A DNA stretch of 64,000 bases from Amycolatopsis thermophila (lineage in GTDB: Bacteria; Actinomycetota; Actinomycetes; Mycobacteriales; Pseudonocardiaceae), in the NCBI RefSeq assembly GCF_030814215.1, contig NZ_JAUSUT010000001.1, positions 3,162,001-3,226,000 on the forward strand, read 5' to 3'. Numbering within the stretch: position 1 is the stretch's first letter; each line of letters starts with the position of its first letter. The notes under the pieces were generated by a model. It was not told the DNA's origin. It did not search any database and worked only from the letters and a program-made list of their open reading frames with translations. Positions 3,187-63,359 of the stretch are shown here, piece after piece. Both the position numbers and the translations under genes were made by a program.

Positions 3187-4176
3187 ATGCGGATCATGGG
3201 TCGCTCCCGGTCGCTGCTCGTCGCGCTCACCGGCTGTCTCGTGCTCGCCGGCTGCGGGTCCGGGCCGAGCCAGGTGGGTGCGGCGGTCATCTCCGGCGAC
3301 CGCGTGACCACGGTGGACCAGGTGCAGGACCTGCTCGACAAGGCCGTGCGGGAACAGCCCGCCGCGCAACAGCTGTCCCAGCAGCGCAAGCTCGATCTGC
3401 TCGGGCGCGAACTGGTGCGGCAGCTGGTGATCCACGACGCGATCGTCCGGGCCGCTCAGCGGGAGGGGCTGGTCGCGGACCCGCAGCTGCTGGAGCAGAC
3501 CCTGGCCAACGACCCGCTGGCCAGCCCGGTGCCGACGACGGCCACCGACCCTTCGCAGCTGGCGCAGCAGGTCGCCAACCGGGTGCGCGACCACCGCGAG
3601 GTGATCACCGACAGCCTGCTGCTGCAGGCGCTCGGGCAGAAGTACGTCGACCGCCTGTCCGTCACCTTCGACTACACCTCGGTGGTGTCCGACGACGGCA
3701 GCGCCCAGCCGGTCGACCGGCGCGAGAAGGCGATCGCCAAGGCCGAGCAGATGGCCGCGAGCCCGGCGGCCGCCGCCGAGGTCATCCGGGCCGACGCGGC
3801 CGCGGGGCAGCAGACGAGCGTCGGCGAGAGCGTGCCGGCCGCGCAGGCGCCCGCACTGGCCACGATGGTCCTGTTCGGGGTCGAGCCGGGCACGGTGGTG
3901 GCGTTCCAGCCGAGCCAGGAGCAGGAGGTGTGGATCGTCGCGATCGTGCGGCAGCGCGATCTGACCACGCCCGCCGTCACCGATCAGGCCGCGCAGCCGA
4001 CGGGTCTGCAGCTCGCCGGGATCGGTCAGCGGCTGCTCCAGCCCGACATCGACCAGGCCGGCGTTCGGGTCAACCCGCGCTACGGCGTGTGGGATCCTGT
4101 GGCCATGAACCTCGCTCCGAGCAGCGCCGAGACCGCCGGTGTCGTGCTGCCGGTGAAGGGCGCCGCGCAGCCGTGA
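3187..4176 (+). CDS. Lipoprotein with SurA-like N-terminal chaperone domain
   Basis: A predicted exported lipoprotein of about 329 residues. A basic stretch and hydrophobic segment end in the lipobox LAGC. The following region (SQQRKLDLLGRELVRQLVIHDAIV) reads like the helical SurA N-terminal chaperone domain. No parvulin peptidyl-prolyl isomerase domain is evident, so a folding or holdase role outside the membrane is inferred. GTG 3184 and ATG 3187 are both possible behind GAGGG (3171-3175). The stop overlaps the mazG start (GTGA), showing coupling. Confidence 0.75.
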   Translation: MRIMGRSRSLLVALTGCLVLAGCGSGPSQVGAAVISGDRVTTVDQVQDLLDKAVREQPAAQQLSQQRKLDLLGRELVRQLVIHDAIVRAAQREGLVADPQLLEQTLANDPLASPVPTTATDPSQLAQQVANRVRDHREVITDSLLLQALGQKYVDRLSVTFDYTSVVSDDGSAQPVDRREKAIAKAEQMAASPAAAAEVIRADAAAGQQTSVGESVPAAQAPALATMVLFGVEPGTVVAFQPSQEQEVWIVAIVRQRDLTTPAVTDQAAQPTGLQLAGIGQRLLQPDIDQAGVRVNPRYGVWDPVAMNLAPSSAETAGVVLPVKGAAQP

Positions 4177-5126
4177 CGGTCGTGCTCCTGCCCTTCCCGG
4201 ACGCCGGGATCCCGCCGGCCGCCGTGCCGTTCCTGCGTGGCGCCCACGCGGTCTACGCGTCGGGCATCGACAGCGAGCTGGCCGATCTGCTGGGCGCGAA
4301 ACCGGCGCCGGAGGACCTGGCCGGGGAAACCGGGCCGGTCGTGCTGTTCGCGGCGGACGCGGCGGATCCCGCGGTGGCGGCCATGGTGCGGGCCGGGTCG
4401 CGGGTGATCGCGCAGCCGGCCGGGGCGGGCCTGGTCGAGGCGGCGCAGGTGATGGACCGGTTGCGTTCCCCGGGCGGCTGCCCGTGGGACGCCGAGCAGA
4501 CGCACGACTCGCTGCGGCAGTACCTGGTCGAGGAGACTTACGAGCTGCTGGAGGCCATCGAGGAGGGCGACCGGGCCGCGCTGCGCGAGGAGCTCGGCGA
4601 CGTGCTGCTCCAGGTGCTCTTCCACGCGCGGGTGGCCGCCGAGGACGACGGCGACCCGTTCGACATCGACGTGGTGGCCTCCGCACTGGTGGCCAAGCTG
4701 GTCGGACGGCACCCGCACATCTTCAGCGACGCCGAGCGCGTGCACACCGCCGCGCACCAGCAGGTGCGGTGGGAGGAGCTGAAGCAGGCCGAGAAGCAGC
4801 GTGAGTCCAGTGTGGACGGTGTCGCGCTCGGGCAGCCCGCGGTGGCGCTGGCCGGGAAGCTGGGGCAGCGCACGAAGCGGGCCGGACTGCCCGCCGACCT
4901 GTTCCCGGCCGGGGATTCCGCGGCGGAGCAGTTGTTCCGGCTGGCCGCCGAGGCGCGGCGGAACGGGATCGACCCCGAGGGCGAGCTGCGCGCAGTCGCG
5001 AAGCGGTTCGCGGCCGACGTGCGGGCGGCGGAGAAGTCGGCCCGCGCCGCCGGGCTGGACCCGGCGGACCTGGACGCCCGCGCCTGGCGCGAGCACTGGC
5101 CCCAGCAGAGCAGCGATTCGCCCTAG
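4173..5126 (+). CDS. mazG: Nucleoside triphosphate pyrophosphohydrolase MazG
   Basis: MazG hydrolyses non-canonical or excess NTPs to NMP and pyrophosphate. The 317-residue protein has an N-terminal extension of about 95 residues, then the MazG domain with metal-binding EETYELLEAIEEGD and EELGDVLLQVLFHAR, similar in size to mycobacterial MazG. The GTG start overlaps the stop of the upstream lipoprotein gene. The last roughly 35 codons, including the stop, form the first unit of the tandem array that fills the gap to efeB; the C-terminal tail after WREHW may therefore have been reshaped by the repeat. Confidence 0.95.
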   Translation: MTVVLLPFPDAGIPPAAVPFLRGAHAVYASGIDSELADLLGAKPAPEDLAGETGPVVLFAADAADPAVAAMVRAGSRVIAQPAGAGLVEAAQVMDRLRSPGGCPWDAEQTHDSLRQYLVEETYELLEAIEEGDRAALREELGDVLLQVLFHARVAAEDDGDPFDIDVVASALVAKLVGRHPHIFSDAERVHTAAHQQVRWEELKQAEKQRESSVDGVALGQPAVALAGKLGQRTKRAGLPADLFPAGDSAAEQLFRLAAEARRNGIDPEGELRAVAKRFAADVRAAEKSARAAGLDPADLDARAWREHWPQQSSDSP

Positions 5127-5489
5127 TAGCCGGTCTGGCTGAGGTGCCGGGTGGCGCGGAAGTCGGCCCGCGGCGCGGGGGCTGGATCTGGTGGCTCTGG
5201 GCGCTGGTGCATAGCACTGGCTGCGCAGTGTCCTCAGCCGAACAGCGTCTCGCCCTAGTAGCCGGTCTGGCTGAGGTGCCGGGCGGCGGAGCGGTCCGCC
5301 CGTGCCGCGGGGCTGGACCCGGCAGGCCTGGACGTTCGCACCTGGTGCGAGCACTGGCCCCCGCCGAGCAGCGATTCGCCCCAGTAGCCGGGTGGGGGTG
5401 GATCGGGTGGGCCTGGACGCTCGTGCCTGGCGTGCGCACTGACCTCAGCCGAACAGCGTCTCGCCCCAGTAGCCCGTCTCGTTGACGCC
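5021..5489. repeat. Tandem array made of mazG and efeB 3' ends
   Basis: Four units run head to tail through the convergent mazG-efeB junction. Each unit has a mazG-3'-like half (gctggacccggcggacctgg type) followed by an efeB-3'-like half (cagcgtctcgcccYAGTAGCC type). The YAGTAGCC anchors lie at 5124, 5256, 5382 and 5467, giving steps of 132, 126 and 85 bp. The first unit is the true end of mazG and the last the true end of efeB. Bases 5119-5151 and 5251-5283 are identical over 33 bp. Unit joints fall at CCGGGYGGCG, matching sequence inside both genes. This accounts for the 318 bp without a gene. Confidence 0.85.
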
Positions 5490-6692
5490 CGGCGGCACCG
5501 CGAACAGTGCCGAACCCGTGTGCTCGATGTACTCCATCATGGCGTCCTTAGCCGACAACGCCTTCTGCATCGGGACGAACTGGGTGCGCGGGTCGCGGTT
5601 GAAGCACAGGAAGAACAGCCCCGCCTCCAGGTGCCCGAGCCCGTCCGACCCGTCCACGAAGTTGTAGCCCCGCCGCAGGATCCGCACGCCGTTGAGGTTC
5701 TCGGCGGACGCCAGCCGGATGTGGGCGTCGGCCGGGATGAGGGGCCGTCCGCCGGCGCCGCCGACGTGCAGGTCGACCGGGTCGAACTCGGCGGCCTGGC
5801 CGAGCGGCGCCCCGGTGCCCTTCGTGCGGCCGACGACCTGCTCCTGCTCGTCCAGCGAGGTGCGGTCCCACGTCTCGATGTGCATGCGGATCCGCCGCGC
5901 CACCAGGTAGCTGCCGCCGGCCAGCCAGTCCGGTCCGTCGCCGGGCGCGACCCACACGTGCTGCGCCAGTGCGTCGGTGTCCTCGGCCTTGAGGTTGTTC
6001 GTGCCGTCCTTGAAGCCGAACAGGTTCCGGGGCGTCACCTGCGTCCGGGACGTCGAGGCGCTGCGCCCGAACCCGAGCTGCGACCAGCGCACCTCCGTCG
6101 TGCCGAACCCGATCCGCACCAGGTTGCGCACCGCGTGCACCGCCACCTGCGGGTCGTTCGCACACGCCTGGATGCACAGGTCGCCACCGCTTCGGGCCGG
6201 GTCGAGGTTGTCCTTGGGGAACGCCGGCAGCTCGGCCAGGGCCTCCGGGCGCTTGCCCGCGAGCCCGAACCGGTCGTCGAACAGCGACGGGCCGAAGCCG
6301 ATCGTCAGCGTCAGCGACGCGGCTGGCAGGTCGAGCGCCTCACCGGTGTCGCCGGGCGGGGCGGCACCGGCGCCGCCCACCGCGCCGTTCGCGACGACCT
6401 CGTGGCCGCCGGTCATGCGCCGCGCCGCGTCGGTCCACTTCCGCAGCAGCGAGATCAGCTTCGCCCGGTCCTTCGTCGTCACGTCGAGCGCGGCGAAGTG
6501 CAGGTGCTCCTGAGCGGGCGTGACGATGCCGGCCTGGTGCTCGCCGTGGAACGGCACGATGTCCGTGGTGGCCGAGGCCTCCGGGGCGGACAGGGCGTGG
6601 TCGATCCCGGCACCGGCCGCCGCGCCGGCTCCGGCGAGGACGACGCCGGCACCGGTGATGCCGAACAGCCGGCGCCGGGACACCTGGGTCAT
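5445..6692 (-). CDS. efeB: Dye-decolourising peroxidase EfeB, Tat-exported
   Basis: EfeB is the haem peroxidase of the EfeUOB iron importer. It has a twin-arginine signal (SRRRLFG followed by a hydrophobic A/G-rich stretch) and is probably folded with haem before export. The DyP GxxDG motif is visible as GFKDGTNN, with haem-pocket features such as HLEAGLFFLCFNRDPRTQF towards the C-terminus. It is 415 residues, normal for the family. The ATG overlaps the efeO stop by ATGA, and it is the last gene of a three-gene minus-strand operon. Its final codons sit in the last unit of the array shared with mazG. Confidence 0.95.
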   Translation of the reverse strand: MTQVSRRRLFGITGAGVVLAGAGAAAGAGIDHALSAPEASATTDIVPFHGEHQAGIVTPAQEHLHFAALDVTTKDRAKLISLLRKWTDAARRMTGGHEVVANGAVGGAGAAPPGDTGEALDLPAASLTLTIGFGPSLFDDRFGLAGKRPEALAELPAFPKDNLDPARSGGDLCIQACANDPQVAVHAVRNLVRIGFGTTEVRWSQLGFGRSASTSRTQVTPRNLFGFKDGTNNLKAEDTDALAQHVWVAPGDGPDWLAGGSYLVARRIRMHIETWDRTSLDEQEQVVGRTKGTGAPLGQAAEFDPVDLHVGGAGGRPLIPADAHIRLASAENLNGVRILRRGYNFVDGSDGLGHLEAGLFFLCFNRDPRTQFVPMQKALSAKDAMMEYIEHTGSALFAVPPGVNETGYWGETLFG

Positions 6693-42112: not shown

Positions 42113-42129
42113 CGGCTACCCGGAGCGTG

Positions 42130-42400
42130 GAATGGTCCGTTCACGCCCGCGCGGGTGGCGCTGTCGTGCGGCAGCGAACCGGTCTCGAATCAGGTTCGAG
42201 ATGAATGGTCCGCTCACCTCCGCGCGAGTGGCACTCTCGCGCCGCAGCGAACCGGTTCCGAGCGCGTCGGCGATGAATGGTCCGTTCATCGCGGCGCGAG
42301 CGGCGCTCTCGTGTGGCAGCGAACCCGATCCCGCGCCGCGACGGTGGTGAACGGTCCGTTCATCCCCCGGTGAGTGGCACTCTTGTGCGCGCGGGTGGCC
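42130..42400. repeat. Tandem array of about 73-bp units with GAAYGGTCCGYTCA core
   Basis: Four units start with gaaYggtccgYtca at about 42130, 42203, 42275 and 42349, so steps are 73, 72 and 74 bp. Each continues with a cgcgcgagtggcgctctcgtg-like stretch and cagcgaaccgg. The core of unit 3, gatgaatggtccgttcatc, is nearly self-complementary and can form a hairpin. The period is not held at a multiple of three, so it is not coding. Confidence 0.85.
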
Positions 42401-42433
42401 CAATCCGGAGGCAGCCGCCGCCACCCTGCCGAA

Positions 42434-43030
42434 CTTCAGGCCGCGACCCGGCAAGACCTCGGGCTGCGACCCGCCGAATCCCGCGTCGAACGGCGGGGAA
42501 CCGAAGGCAGCCAACCGGCAAACCCAAAGGCCGCCACCCCGAGCAAACCCCAAGGCGTCACCCGCGGAATCTCAGGCCGGCCGCGGCGGAACCTCAGGCC
42601 CCCACGCAGCAAGACCTCGGGCTGCGACCCTGCGCAACCCAGGTCGGTCCCCCGTCGTCGCACCGGCCCGCCGCCCGGCCAATCCCCGGGCCGCCACCGG
42701 CCAAACCCCCGGGGCGCCCCCGCGAACGCCAGACCGGCGCCCGGCGACTCCCGAGGCCGCCGCCCGGCCAAACCCCAGACCGCCACCGGCCGAAACCCCG
42801 GGGCGCCCCCGCGAACGCCACACCGGCGCCCGGCGACTCCCGAGGCCGCCGCCCGGCCAAACCCCAGACCGCCACCGGCCGAAACCCCGGGGCGCCCCCG
42901 CGAACGCCAGGCCGCCGCCCGGCGAACCCGAGGCCGCCACCCGGCCAATCCCTGGGCCGCCACCGGCCAAAACCCCGGGGCCACCCCGCGAGCCCCAGGC
43001 CGCCGACCCCGCGAGCCCCAGGCCGCCCGC
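42434..43030. repeat. C-rich tandem array with an 89-bp repeat
   Basis: This stretch is built of cggccaaaccccagaccgccacc-like words on the plus strand. Two nearly identical 89-bp units start at cgcgaacgcc 42721 and 42810, with a partial third at 42899. Two further blocks (near 42435 and 42591) read a(c/t)ctcaggcc then gcaagacctcgggct and resemble the end of the facing reductase gene. Long open frames on both strands are composition artefacts; 89 bp is not a multiple of three. With the 73-bp array this fills the 929-bp convergent gap. Confidence 0.75.
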
Positions 43031-43041
43031 CCAGCGATACC

Positions 43042-55792: not shown

Positions 55793-57103
55793 ATGGTGGC
55801 GACTGCGACGGAGCTGGCCCGGGCCGTGCGGGCCGGGGAAGTGGATCCGGAACGGGAGACGGAACTGGTGATCGCGGGCATTGCGGCCGCGGATCGCGTC
55901 GTCGGTGCGTTCCGGAAAGTGCGTGCGGCGGAGGCGGTGGCCGAGGCCCGCCGGGTGCGCGAACGGCCCGATCTCGGCGAGCTGCCGCTGGCCGGCGCGC
56001 CGGTCGCGGTGAAGGACGTGGCGGCGATCGCCGGCGAGACGGTGACGCGCGGATCGCGCGCGGTGCCGGCTGCGACCGCTGGTTCAGACCACCTCGTGGT
56101 GCGGCGGCTGCGCGAAGCCGGTGCGGTGATCGTCGGGATCACGCGCGTGCCGGAGCTGTGCATCTGGCCGATGACGGATTCCCCGGAGGGTATCGCACGC
56201 AACCCGTGGGTTCCGGCGTACACGGCGGGCGGTTCGTCGGGCGGGAGCGCAGCGGCGGTGGCGGCCGGGCTGGTGCCGGTCGCGCACGGCACGGACGGGC
56301 TGGGCTCGATCCGCCTCCCGGCGGCGATGTGCGGGCTGGTCGGGATCAAGCCGGGGGCCGACGTGCTGCCCGAGGACGGCTGGTTCGGGATGTCCGCGCA
56401 CGGCAGCCTGGCGACGACGGTCGCCGACGCCGCGTTGGTGTTGTCGGTGCTGGCCGGGCGGCCGGACCTGGCGACGGTCGGCGAGCCGGGCCGGTTGCGG
56501 GTCGCGGTGTCGACGGAGGTGCCGTTGACGCACGCGCCGGTGCCCCGGCCCCTGACGGCGGCGGTGGAACGGGTCGCGGACCTGCTGGCCGGGGCGGGGC
56601 ACGCCGTGGAGCGGGCGCGGCCGCGTTACGGCGTCGAGCCGGTGGCCGGGATCCTGGAGCGCTGGTTCGCCGGGCCTGCCGAGGAGGCGGCGGGGCTGGA
56701 CGAGAGCCTGTTGCAGGCGCGGACGCAGCGGCACGTGCGGATCGGGCGGGCCGTGCGAAAGCTGGTGCGGCCCGGAACCGCGCGGCGGTGGATCGAGCGG
56801 GCGGCGGAGTTCTTCACCGCGCACGACGTCCTGATCACCCCGACGCTGGCCACGTTGCCGCCGAAGGCCGCGGCGTGGCACACGCGGTCCTGCGCCGCCA
56901 ACGCGCTGCCCTCGATCGCGCTGGCGGGCTTCACGGGACTGTGGAACCTGGCCGGCTACCCGGCGATGTCCGTCCCGGCCGGACGTCATCCCAACGGGCT
57001 ACCGATCGGGGTCCAGCTGGTCAGCCGCCCCGGCGGCGAAGCGCGGCTGCTGGCGCTGGCCGCGCAGCTGGAGGCGCTGAACCCCTGGCCACGCCTGCCG
57101 TAG
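55793..57103 (+). CDS. Amidase-signature family amidohydrolase
   Basis: A 436-residue amidase. The Ser-cisSer-Lys triad is readable: Lys in PVAVKDVAAIAGE, cis-Ser in AGGSSGGSAAAVAAG, and the nucleophile Ser in GTDGLGSIRLPAAMCGL; the usual GTDGGGS reads GTDGLGS. The substrate is unknown. The C-terminal part FTGLWNLAGYPAMSVPAGRH is typical. The final 60 bases, with the stop, are repeated twice more in the array that follows. Confidence 0.9.
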   Translation: MVATATELARAVRAGEVDPERETELVIAGIAAADRVVGAFRKVRAAEAVAEARRVRERPDLGELPLAGAPVAVKDVAAIAGETVTRGSRAVPAATAGSDHLVVRRLREAGAVIVGITRVPELCIWPMTDSPEGIARNPWVPAYTAGGSSGGSAAAVAAGLVPVAHGTDGLGSIRLPAAMCGLVGIKPGADVLPEDGWFGMSAHGSLATTVADAALVLSVLAGRPDLATVGEPGRLRVAVSTEVPLTHAPVPRPLTAAVERVADLLAGAGHAVERARPRYGVEPVAGILERWFAGPAEEAAGLDESLLQARTQRHVRIGRAVRKLVRPGTARRWIERAAEFFTAHDVLITPTLATLPPKAAAWHTRSCAANALPSIALAGFTGLWNLAGYPAMSVPAGRHPNGLPIGVQLVSRPGGEARLLALAAQLEALNPWPRLP

Positions 57104-57950
57104 CTGAGACCCGCCGATGTGGCGTTGGTGGCGCTGGCCGTGACATCGGCCGGCGAGCGCGGGCGGGGTCGCATCGGCCGGTGAGTGCGGGCGGGGTCGC
57201 ATCGGCCGGCGAACGTGGCGCCCGCCGTCACAGCGGTTGGCGAGCGCGGGCGGCGTCGCATCGGCCGATGAGCGCGGGTGGTGGGCGCCGGTTACTTCTT
57301 CGGGGAGGGGAGGGCCGCTTCGGTGGCTGCTGGCCGTCCCGCCGAGCGGCGGGGCGCGGCTGCTGGCGGTGGCCGCGCAGCTGGAGGCGCTGAACCCCTG
57401 GCCACGCCTGCCGTAGCTGAAGCTCGCCGATGTGGCGTTGGTGGCGCCTGCCGTGACATCGGCCGGTGAGCGCGGGCGGCGTCGCATCGGCCGGTGAGCG
57501 CGGGCGGTGGGCGCCGGTTACTTCTTGGGGGAGGGCCGCTTCGGTGGCTGCTGGCCGTCCTGCCCGGGCGGCGGGACGCGGCTGCCGGCGGTGGCCGGGC
57601 GGCTGGAGGCGCTGAACCCCTGGCCATGCCTGCCGTAGCTGAGGCTCGCCGATGTGGCGTTGGTGCCGCCGGCCGTGACATCGGCCGGCGAGCGCGGGCG
57701 GGGTCGCATCGGCCGGTGAAACCGGGCGGCGTCACAGCGGTTGGCGAACGCGCGGCGTCGCATTGGCCGGTGAGTGCGGGCGGCGTCGCATTGGCCGATG
57801 AGTGCGGGCGGCGGCACAGCGGCCGGCGAACGTGGCGCCCGCCGTCGCATCGGCCGGTGAACGCCGGCGTCACATCGGCCGGTGAGCGCGGGCGGGTGGG
57901 CGCCGGTTACTTCTTCGGGGAGGGCCGCTTCGGTGGCTGCTGGCCGTCCT
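57031..57950. repeat. Tandem array made of amidase and FilP-like gene 3' ends
   Basis: The gap between these convergent genes consists of duplicated gene ends. Amidase-3' copies (ggaggcgctgaacccctggcc, stop tag, gatgtggcgttggtg) occur at about 57043 (real), 57355 and 57580. Copies of the facing gene's 3' end (gggcgccggttacttctt then ggctgctggccgtcc) occur at 57283, 57509 and 57898 (real). Between them lie roughly 25-bp words like catcggccggtgagcgcgg, in about a dozen variants. Joints between the two gene ends fall at a gggcggcg microhomology. This accounts for the 803 bp without a gene. Confidence 0.88.
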
Positions 57951-59349
57951 GCCGGGCGGCGGGGCCGGCGAGCGCCGCCGGCGGTTTCCCGGTGACGGGC
58001 GGCGTGGCGGGTTTCGTGTCACCGCTCCGGCTGGGCTTCGGGCCGCGGGCCGGGGCGGGCGTCGCCCCACCCGAGGTGGCGGGCCCACCAGCCGGGCCCG
58101 GCTTCGCCGTGGCGTCACCAGCGGCAGCCGGGCTCTGTCCGGCTCCACCGGCCGACGTCGCGCCGCCGCCCGTGGCGGGCGCCGTCCCGGCCGCAGCCGC
58201 GCTCGTCCTGGCCGCGGGTCCGGTGCCGGAGCCGCCGGCCTGGGCCGCACCGCCGGCACCCGGCCGGGGAGCGGGCTTCACCGCGGGCACCGTCTTCTGT
58301 CCGTCGGGCACCACGTCGCCGCCCGGAGCCGCACCCGCCGGGGCCGCACCCGCCGCAGCCGCGCCAGCCGGACCCGCGCCCGCCGCGCCCGCCGGACCCG
58401 CGCCCGCCGGACCCGCGCCCGCCGGACCCGCGCCCGACGGCGCCTCACCGGCGCGGCTCATGTCGACGACGGACTCGTCCTTCAGCGGCTCCAGCGCGGA
58501 CTGGCTGCGGGCCAGCACCTCGTCGGTCTTGCGGAGCCGGCTGGCGACCTCCGTGCTGACCCGCGTCAGGCGATCGACCAGGTCCCGCGCCTCGCGCTCG
58601 CGCTTCTCCGCCTTTGCCGTCGCCTCTGCGACGAGGCGGCGGGCCCGCTCGGTGGCCTCGTCGACGAGCCGCTTCGCCTCGGCGGTCGCCTCCGCGATGC
58701 GGCGCTCGGCCTGCTGCTTGCTCGCCCGCTGCTGGTCGGCGACGTGCTTCTCCAGCGCGGCCCGCTGCGCGGCCATCGACTGCTCGAAGTCGTGCTGCAC
58801 CGTGCGGCGCTTGCGTTCCGCCTCGATGTCCAGCTGCGTCCGGCGCCGCGTCGCCTCCGCGGTCAGCCGCTCGACCTCGGCCTTCGTCGCCTCCAGCGCG
58901 CGCTTGTGCTCGGCCTGCAGCGCCTGCCCGTGCGTGTCCAGCTCGGCGAGCAGGCTCTGGTACCGCTCGCGCAGCTTCCCGGACAGCTCGGTCGTCCTGC
59001 TCCAGTGCTCCTCGGCCGCGACCTGCGCCCGCGAGGTGATCTCCTCGGCGCGCATCTCGGCCAGCTCGACCGTGCGCTGCATGCGCTCGTCCAGGTCCTC
59101 GACCCGCTCCGGCGGCCGCTTGAGCTCCTCCACCCGGTTCCGCAGGCGGGCGATCTCCCCGCGCGCACCCTCCAGCTCCCTGGACAGGTTGCTCGCCTTG
59201 GTCATCGCGTTGTCGCGATCAGCCATCACCCGGCGCAGGTTCGCCTCGACGTGATCCAGGTACTGCAGCACCTGGCCGCGGTCGAAACCGTGCCACACCT
59301 GGTTGTACTCACGCCTCAACGGCAGCAGGCTGTCGCGTTCGGGAACCAT
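57907..59349 (-). CDS. FilP/DivIVA-like coiled-coil protein
   Basis: A 480-residue cytoskeletal-type protein of the actinobacterial family often labelled cellulose-binding protein (FilP/Scy relatives). The N-terminal LPLRREYNQVWHGFDRGQVL is DivIVA-like; residues about 30-290 are a long coiled coil (RTQLDIEAERKRRTVQHDFE, AEATAEAKRLVDEATERARR). From about 300 the chain is disordered Gly/Pro/Ala with GPAGA repeats, ending PPKRPSPKK. A role in polar growth or septum placement is inferred. The ATG at 59349 is preferred over an upstream in-frame codon. Confidence 0.85.
   Translation of the reverse strand: MVPERDSLLPLRREYNQVWHGFDRGQVLQYLDHVEANLRRVMADRDNAMTKASNLSRELEGARGEIARLRNRVEELKRPPERVEDLDERMQRTVELAEMRAEEITSRAQVAAEEHWSRTTELSGKLRERYQSLLAELDTHGQALQAEHKRALEATKAEVERLTAEATRRRTQLDIEAERKRRTVQHDFEQSMAAQRAALEKHVADQQRASKQQAERRIAEATAEAKRLVDEATERARRLVAEATAKAEKREREARDLVDRLTRVSTEVASRLRKTDEVLARSQSALEPLKDESVVDMSRAGEAPSGAGPAGAGPAGAGPAGAAGAGPAGAAAAGAAPAGAAPGGDVVPDGQKTVPAVKPAPRPGAGGAAQAGGSGTGPAARTSAAAAGTAPATGGGATSAGGAGQSPAAAGDATAKPGPAGGPATSGGATPAPARGPKPSRSGDTKPATPPVTGKPPAALAGPAARQDGQQPPKRPSPKK
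58377..58440. repeat. 15-bp tandem repeats coding GPAGA in the FilP-like tail
   Basis: About four copies of a 15-base unit (gcccgccggacccgc type) stay in frame and encode the repeated pentapeptide of the disordered tail. Copy number could change by slippage and alter tail length without a frameshift. Confidence 0.7.
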
Positions 59350-62437: not shown

Positions 62438-62453
62438 CGCGGTCCACGTCAAG

Positions 62454-62490
62454 CAGAAGGACACTCGGTGATCAACCGGGTGTCCTTCTG
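62454..62490 (+). terminator. Terminator after the BI-1 gene
   Basis: A 15-bp stem (cagaaggacactcgg / ccgggtgtccttctg, one G-U pair) with a 7-base loop begins 17 bp after the stop and is followed by tcatgtgg. The stem is long, though the U-run is poor. Confidence 0.7.
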
Positions 62491-62588
62491 TCATGTGGTC
62501 ACCTGATCGGTGGGCCAGTGATCGTCACGTTGACTACGCAGTGTTGGATACGGGCATCTGTCGTCCCGTTTACACTTGTGAGGTCCGC

Positions 62589-63359
62589 GTGAGCGTCCCC
62601 CCACCGCCGGCTGCGCCTGGAGGGCAGCCGGCACCGTTCGGCAATCGGCCGCCCGCCGGTAACCAGGGCGCTCCCGGCGCTTTCGGCCAGCCCGGCCCGC
62701 AGGGGCAGGCCGGCCAGTTCGGTCCGCCGCCCGGCCAGCCCGCCGGCGCCCCGCCCGCCGTCCCGCCGCCCGGCCAGCCCGGCGCGTTCGGCCCGCCACC
62801 GGGGCAGCCGTTCGGCCCGCCGCCCGGCGTGCCGGCGCGGAAGAGACGCTTCCCGGTGTGGCTGATGATCGTCGCCCCGATCGTCGTGGTCGGGCTCGTC
62901 GTCGCCGGCGTGATCGGCTTCCTGAACTCCCCGGACAGCGCGGCCGTCGGCGACTGCCTGCAGGTCACCGAGTTCAAGTACAACGGCGACGAGCCGACGA
63001 AGATCGACTGCAACGACCAGAACGCGAACGTCAAGATCGCCGTGAAGCTGGACGACTCCTCGTCCGAGTGCCCCACCGGCGACTACGACTCCTACAGCGT
63101 CTCCGGCCGCGGCGACTACAAGCTCTGCCTGATGATCAACGCCCACGAGGGTGACTGCTTCGCCAACGTCACCTCGGACACCGCCGGTTACAAGCGGGTT
63201 CCCTGCACGGACCCGACGGCCGAGATCGAGTTCCTCAAGATCGTCACCGGCCAGGCCGACGAGGCGGCGTGCCAGGGCCTCAAATACGACGGCGCGGTGA
63301 AGTACTCCGAGCCCGCCACCACCATGTGCGCGGTCGCGAAGGGCGGCGCCAGCGCCTGA
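62589..63359 (+). CDS. Pro/Gly/Gln-rich single-pass membrane protein with Cys-rich outer domain (LppU-like)
   Basis: A 256-residue protein. The first 85 residues are a cytoplasmic low-complexity PPGQPxGxPP tail; a membrane helix follows (PVWLMIVAPIVVVGLVVAGV); the outer domain has paired cysteines (VGDCLQV, KIDCND, SECPTGDYDSYSV, YKLCLMINAHEGDC, RVPCTDPTAEIEF, AACQGL, TMCAV). It resembles actinobacterial LppU-type proteins of unknown role, where C...C pairs form disulfides. The GTG at 62589 is chosen for the GTGAGG just upstream; a longer frame exists but looks like promoter sequence. Confidence 0.75.
   Translation: MSVPPPPAAPGGQPAPFGNRPPAGNQGAPGAFGQPGPQGQAGQFGPPPGQPAGAPPAVPPPGQPGAFGPPPGQPFGPPPGVPARKRRFPVWLMIVAPIVVVGLVVAGVIGFLNSPDSAAVGDCLQVTEFKYNGDEPTKIDCNDQNANVKIAVKLDDSSSECPTGDYDSYSVSGRGDYKLCLMINAHEGDCFANVTSDTAGYKRVPCTDPTAEIEFLKIVTGQADEAACQGLKYDGAVKYSEPATTMCAVAKGGASA

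Follow-up and report, generated by a model that had tools for sequence, protein, structure and literature searches.

MIRU-type mycobacterial repeats are intergenic tandem repeats that lie beside gene ends, and they represent one sequence family across many loci. The array described here, located between two convergent genes of Amycolatopsis thermophila, also consists of tandem repeats in intergenic DNA beside gene ends; unlike the MIRUs, it was private to its locus in the searches made. Stop codons lie within tandem repeats in Yersinia pestis, in which 10 VNTRs cover a stop codon and 6 a start codon, and the available text reads the lower VNTR diversity near 5' ends as purifying selection (PMC3689786). 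Repeats holding a stop codon are found both there and here. According to the same text, most of the Y. pestis VNTRs have short units (84.1% being 7-21 bp long) and are given ORF by ORF (PMC3689786), whereas at the present locus blocks of 222-313 bp hold both facing gene ends, with 28-bp words nested in them.

The direct repeats of Borg elements are fast-evolving and independent in origin, as are those described here, and they start inside gene ends (PMC9879509). In the available text, the Borg repeats are perfect, A-enriched, and carried by extrachromosomal archaeal elements, whereas the present repeats are diverged, GC-rich, bacterial and drawn from both facing ends; the orientation of neighbouring genes is not a subject of that text (PMC9879509). 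A survey of prokaryotic satellites gives 23 satellites for Amycolatopsis mediterranei and unique, unrelated satellites for Clostridioides difficile, and the available portion uses neither the term convergent nor the term stop codon (PMC6749651). Gain and loss of convergent gene overlaps by movement of start or stop codons has been described (PMC4161906). The word duplication is absent from the available part of that paper, whereas at positions 5127-5444 of the DNA studied here the stretch shared by two genes was duplicated in tandem, and their overlap was lost in this way. Short-homology rearrangements of bacteria, duplications included, are also on record in the available text of PMC3411829. 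Tandem repeats over stop codons are already known; the two-ended form was not found described, since neither duplication of both facing gene ends nor overlap loss by tandem duplication was found in the open-access literature, a body of work outside which most subscription papers lie.

The window, that is, the whole stretch of 64,000 bp that was analysed, corresponds to positions 3162001-3226000 of a 7.3-Mb genome assembled as one contig. An amidase gene and a coiled-coil gene converge in this window at a distance of 803 bp (Table 1). The DivIVA-like N-terminus of the coiled-coil gene is a weak match (24.6 bits against a Pfam cut-off of 28), and the nearest named relatives of this gene are from Amycolatopsis. 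The gap contains two extra copies of the 3' end of each gene and thirteen words of about 28 bp, which are arranged in three direct blocks with spacings of 313 and 222 bp. Each block consists, in order, of the amidase 3' end with TAG, a shared stretch of ~32 bp, 28-bp words whose number differs from block to block, and the coiled-coil 3' end with its stop. The third coiled-coil end is that of the gene itself (57907 onward), and the matches of both coiled-coil copies extend past the joint into the following amidase copy. The alternation of three amidase ends, each with a stop codon, and three coiled-coil ends had been recognised in a first-pass annotation and holds at all six ends; the words, given there as about a dozen of 25 bp, number thirteen and have a period of about 28 bp.

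Table 1. Window positions of the features at the two duplicated convergent junctions
Feature	Position	Strand	Remarks
Amidase gene (PF01425), left gene of pair	55793..57103	+	
Coiled-coil gene, right gene of pair	57907..59349	-	DivIVA-like N-terminus below Pfam cut-off
Amidase 3' end used by gene	57027..57103	+	with TAG
Second amidase 3' end	57346..57416	+	95.8%, with TAG
Third amidase 3' end	57562..57638	+	88.3%, with TAG
Coiled-coil 3' end copy	57292..57360	-	88.4%, with stop; match overruns joint by some bases
Coiled-coil 3' end copy	57518..57611	-	83.8%, with stop; match overruns joint by some bases
28-bp words, five copies	57136..57281	.	
28-bp words, two copies	57449..57507	.	
28-bp words, six copies	57671..57895	.	
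Joint 1, coiled-coil end to amidase end	57338..57360	.	AGCGGCG at 57345-57351
Joint 2, same joint	57560..57582	.	GGCGGCG at 57567-57573
Second convergent gap of same kind	5127..5444	.	partial copies of junction
MazG-family gene	4173-5126	+	
DyP peroxidase	5445-6692	-	

The gene-end copies make up 37% of the gap, or 78% together with the 28-bp words, and their scores are 129 and 115, with the best of 50 shuffles reaching 43 and 47. No inverted gene-end copies were found in the gap above the threshold used for the direct ones; the copies run head to tail, as in a minisatellite. Because the blocks are 83-89% identical across 189 bp, the array is not very recent. In 500 dinucleotide shuffles of the gap, the 28-bp word occurred at a mean of 0.014 and a maximum of one per shuffle, against the thirteen observed. 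This word has six matches, counted on both strands, in a 1.6-Mb sample of the same genome. The words resemble coiled-coil coding sequence at 57963-58005 (76%), a level that was reached by 22 of 200 shuffles in a separate test, and they have no convincing homology to the gaps of relatives. Origin of the focal array from a dispersed element was considered and rejected, since at E 1e-4 the array matched nowhere else in the 80 stretches sampled. A search of the whole genome with the array, in which 40 of 325 first-look candidates were scored, gave four short weak matches elsewhere (31-54 bp, E 2e-5 to 8e-4), and the unit was not found at many genome loci as a MIRU-type unit would be.

The exact word common to both parent ends is GGCGGCG (7 nt), which is present at joint 2, and joint 1 carries the one-base variant AGCGGCG. 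The longer word GGGCGGCG, to which the joint had been assigned earlier, is present on the coiled-coil side only. Both joints lie at the same point, which suggests one founding duplication that was then copied further.

The focal gap is probably the product of a short-homology tandem duplication that was tolerated as each gene keeps one complete end. A segment that takes in ~77 bp of the amidase 3' end and ~63 bp of the coiled-coil 3' end, with what lies between, would have been duplicated between GGCGGCG homologies and then copied once more, and the internal 28-bp words may have grown and shrunk via slippage or unequal exchange. Such ordinary direct tandem duplication would yield a non-coding minisatellite, with the amidase reading into the leftmost copy and the coiled-coil gene into the rightmost, both intact. 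The array may persist because neither gene has been deprived of an intact end to read into, and the middle copies would be free to drift. This chemistry, this order of steps and the neutrality of the array are what we infer from the copies; low diversity of some VNTRs that lie over 3' ends in Y. pestis argues against simple neutrality, as far as the available text goes (PMC3689786). Duplication of facing gene ends is probably of a harmless kind. A direct duplication across two facing 3' ends would leave each gene a full end, whereas one that reached a promoter or start codon would copy these signals. Placement of arrays near 3' ends and convergent junctions would therefore mainly reflect tolerance, as promoter and start codon are absent there, and tolerance predicts arrays near 3' ends, the fewest in divergent gaps, and units private to their loci.

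The same step acting on overlapping convergent genes would pull them apart, as happened in the second gap of Table 1, between a MazG-family gene and a DyP peroxidase; this gap fits the second, unrelated convergent pair of the same design that the first-pass annotation had reported. Fifteen relatives were compared, using 16 of 20 loci (the other four are paralogs of 44-46% identity), and Tandem Repeats Finder output for the junctions with gaps of -28 and -31 was dropped, being an artefact of joining overlapping ends. The two genes overlap by 28 bp in 6/15 relatives, by 31 bp in 3/15 and by 4 bp in 1/15; one relative has its genes 1000 bp apart, and in 3/15 no partner was found in the locus. In all six relatives with the 28-bp overlap, the overlapping junction maps to four places of the window (about 4901-5136, 5137-5286, 5269-5391 and 5401/5414-5700; both orientations searched). 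As judged by eye, the MazG frame is kept in the left copy, from which the DyP stop has gone; that stop is still present in the right copy. The correspondence of one junction to four places in 6/6 relatives indicates that tandem duplication separated the overlapping genes, each of which kept one copy of the shared stretch. In G002 (L271), the MazG/DyP gap of 424 bp is filled by a 22-bp x 18.7 array, and three others overlap by 31 bp.

The convergent gap between TetR and ferredoxin-reductase-like genes (42113-43041) was considered as the second pair and rejected: it has arrays (73 bp x 3.6 and 89 bp x 4.3) and no gene-end copies. Its 89-bp array holds 23-bp words, array sequence of this gap extends ~11 bp beyond the stop into the gene, and a TetR partner beside the reductase was not found in the 5 relatives examined.

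The amidase gene faces the coiled-coil gene in 59 of 82 loci (own genome included), with gaps of -28 to 1162 bp; an adjacent amidase was not found in the other 23, some of which are cut by contig ends. Arrays with a score of at least 100 are present in 9/45 focal gaps of named loci, as compared with 4/240 same-direction, 0/110 divergent and 2/43 other convergent gaps of the same loci (74 loci in this comparison). The repeat units at this junction are unlike between species. Direct gene-end copies are present in 4/47 focal gaps of at least 60 bp and inverted copies in none (own genome included). In G016 (393-bp gap), a 43-bp unit that includes the coiled-coil stop is repeated ~6x, and its close relative G009 (220 bp) has one. 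Similarly, the 579-bp gap of P. endophytica repeats a stretch that is single in P. flavalba (62 bp); this stretch takes in the last 26 nt of the amidase, and the repeats include the stop codon. Long and short gaps are adjacent in several places of the coiled-coil protein tree (L081/L083, L109/L115, L129/L131). Repeat content at the same locus thus differs among related genomes, as in minisatellites, the comparison being between species, with one genome per species for this genus. In the draft assembly G015 (L011, L043), the coiled-coil and amidase 3' ends each face a contig end, on two separate contigs, which would fit a break of the assembly at this junction.

The survey of tandem arrays by gap type covered 80 stretches of 20 kb, which make up 1.6 of the genome's 7.3 Mb and leave out the window, with genes called by a home-made codon-periodicity caller that, when tried on the window, ended both focal genes at the expected stops. 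A tandem repeat score of at least 100 defined an array, and gaps of at least 40 bp were counted. Arrays were present in 20/138 convergent, 14/381 same-direction and 1/234 divergent gaps (convergent vs same-direction, p=6e-5; vs divergent, p=1e-8). Within gap-length strata, convergent gaps still exceeded same-direction gaps (p=0.02; p=0.003 with the extra units subtracted from gap length). In the same-direction gaps, 11/14 arrays lie closer to the 3' end of the upstream gene (p=0.017). More arrays near 3' ends and the fewest in divergent gaps are what tolerance predicts. As for private units, the focal array is private and three sampled arrays belong to a dispersed repeat.

Convergent array enrichment was absent in two other Amycolatopsis genomes, 400 kb of each being covered: the convergent, same-direction and divergent counts were 1/36, 3/105 and 1/66 in G009 and 1/32, 2/106 and 0/51 in G003, respectively. 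The difference between this genome and the two pooled was significant for arrays in convergent gaps (p=0.015). The enrichment at convergent gaps was seen only for this genome in the comparison, and since G009 and G003 lack it, something in this genome may differ. At two further array junctions close orthologs were few, and no loci were found at a third. The arrays at L153:14142, L154:15649 and L196:13081 lie at unrelated gaps, have common sequence found at 11-12 other places in the sampled sequence, and represent a dispersed intergenic repeat of this genome.

Direct copies of gene ends within the gap were counted over this genome's sample, G009, G003 and the 74 named loci, leaving out the window because it was the place of discovery. 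They were found for 13/1420 3' termini and 2/1754 5' termini (p=0.001), and the focal junction of other species contributes 2 of the 13. Among 3' ends, convergent (8/588) and same-direction (5/832) termini did not differ significantly (p=0.16). Gene-end copying characterises 3' ends and is not clearly tied to convergence. In the window itself, 4/20 convergent termini are copied, in 2/10 convergent gaps, which explains why the pattern was noticed in the first place. At a score of at least 50, 8 gaps hold direct copies of gene ends and none holds an inverted one (window included). No ortholog loci were found for one same-direction gap with a 3' copy.

The first-pass annotation had proposed a recurrent process, such as collision or a recombinase using the joint motif, and a scan of convergent pairs. 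Recurrence is upheld insofar as two unrelated pairs in the window are beyond chance, the kind recurs elsewhere, and arrays are enriched at the convergent gaps of the 1.6-Mb sample; the tie to convergence is weakened by gene-end copies that are not clearly above those of same-direction 3' ends. A mutational hotspot, in which head-on transcription (or R-loops or replication conflicts) would break DNA at convergent junctions and repair would duplicate it, is unlikely. It draws its best support from the convergent array excess remaining at equal gap length, because of which tolerance alone may not suffice. Among convergent gaps of at least 200 bp, the median |GC skew| is higher in those with arrays (0.115, n=20) than in those without (0.052, n=47), but the skew may come from repetition instead of causing it. 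The hotspot is also difficult to reconcile with the gene-end counts at convergent and same-direction 3' ends and with array enrichment that G009 and G003 did not reproduce. Collision is not needed to explain the focal gap. A broader reading, that in this Amycolatopsis lineage short direct duplications arise at a raised rate and are directed to zones of converging transcripts, with convergent junctions as growth points, is doubtful; if true, these growth points would make non-coding DNA from gene tails, free overlapping genes and let 3' tails diverge.

Retention of the repeats for a function, e.g., bidirectional termination or insulation of both transcripts, is quite improbable. The junction does gain repeats in different species, and the + strand folds better than most shuffles (z-score -1.98, 1/20 as good), but the - strand folds no better than shuffles (z -0.24, 9/20), a simple scan found no terminator-like site, the repeat units differ between species, and the junctions of 8/59 species overlap or have gaps of at most 30 bp. 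That a site-specific recombinase or a mobile element built the array at a motif like GGGCGGCG is extremely unlikely and is not needed for the explanation. The joint words of the window's two duplicated pairs, GGCGGCG and CGGGCGG, are GC-rich and have GGCGG in common, and none of the 189 convergent pairs sampled has either word in both of its ends. The likeness of these joints is therefore not explained away, yet it is weak as there are two cases only. An exact word of at least 7 nt is common to the last 120 bp of both genes in 83% of the 189 pairs, so that a 7-nt homology between facing ends is nothing special. GGCGGCG itself occurs 2.3 times per kb over both strands, the array was found at no other place in the sampled stretches, and the G016 expansion seems, by eye, to use a different word.

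Tolerated tandem duplication would provide a concrete and testable way for compact bacterial genomes to turn coding sequence into intergenic DNA, and for overlapping convergent genes to come apart, neither losing its end. It also sets against each other a mutation hotspot and relaxed selection, which are easily confounded at gene 3' ends. Such junctions are likely error spots for gene callers and short-read assemblies.

Two further repeats were observed in the window. The same-direction gap at 62438-62855 contains a 69-bp x 1.9 array. The C-terminal tail of the coiled-coil gene is itself a 15-bp tandem repeat (58323-58444), and this tail, measured between the tblastn match end and the stop, is 10 to 256 residues long among the 59 loci with a measured gap.
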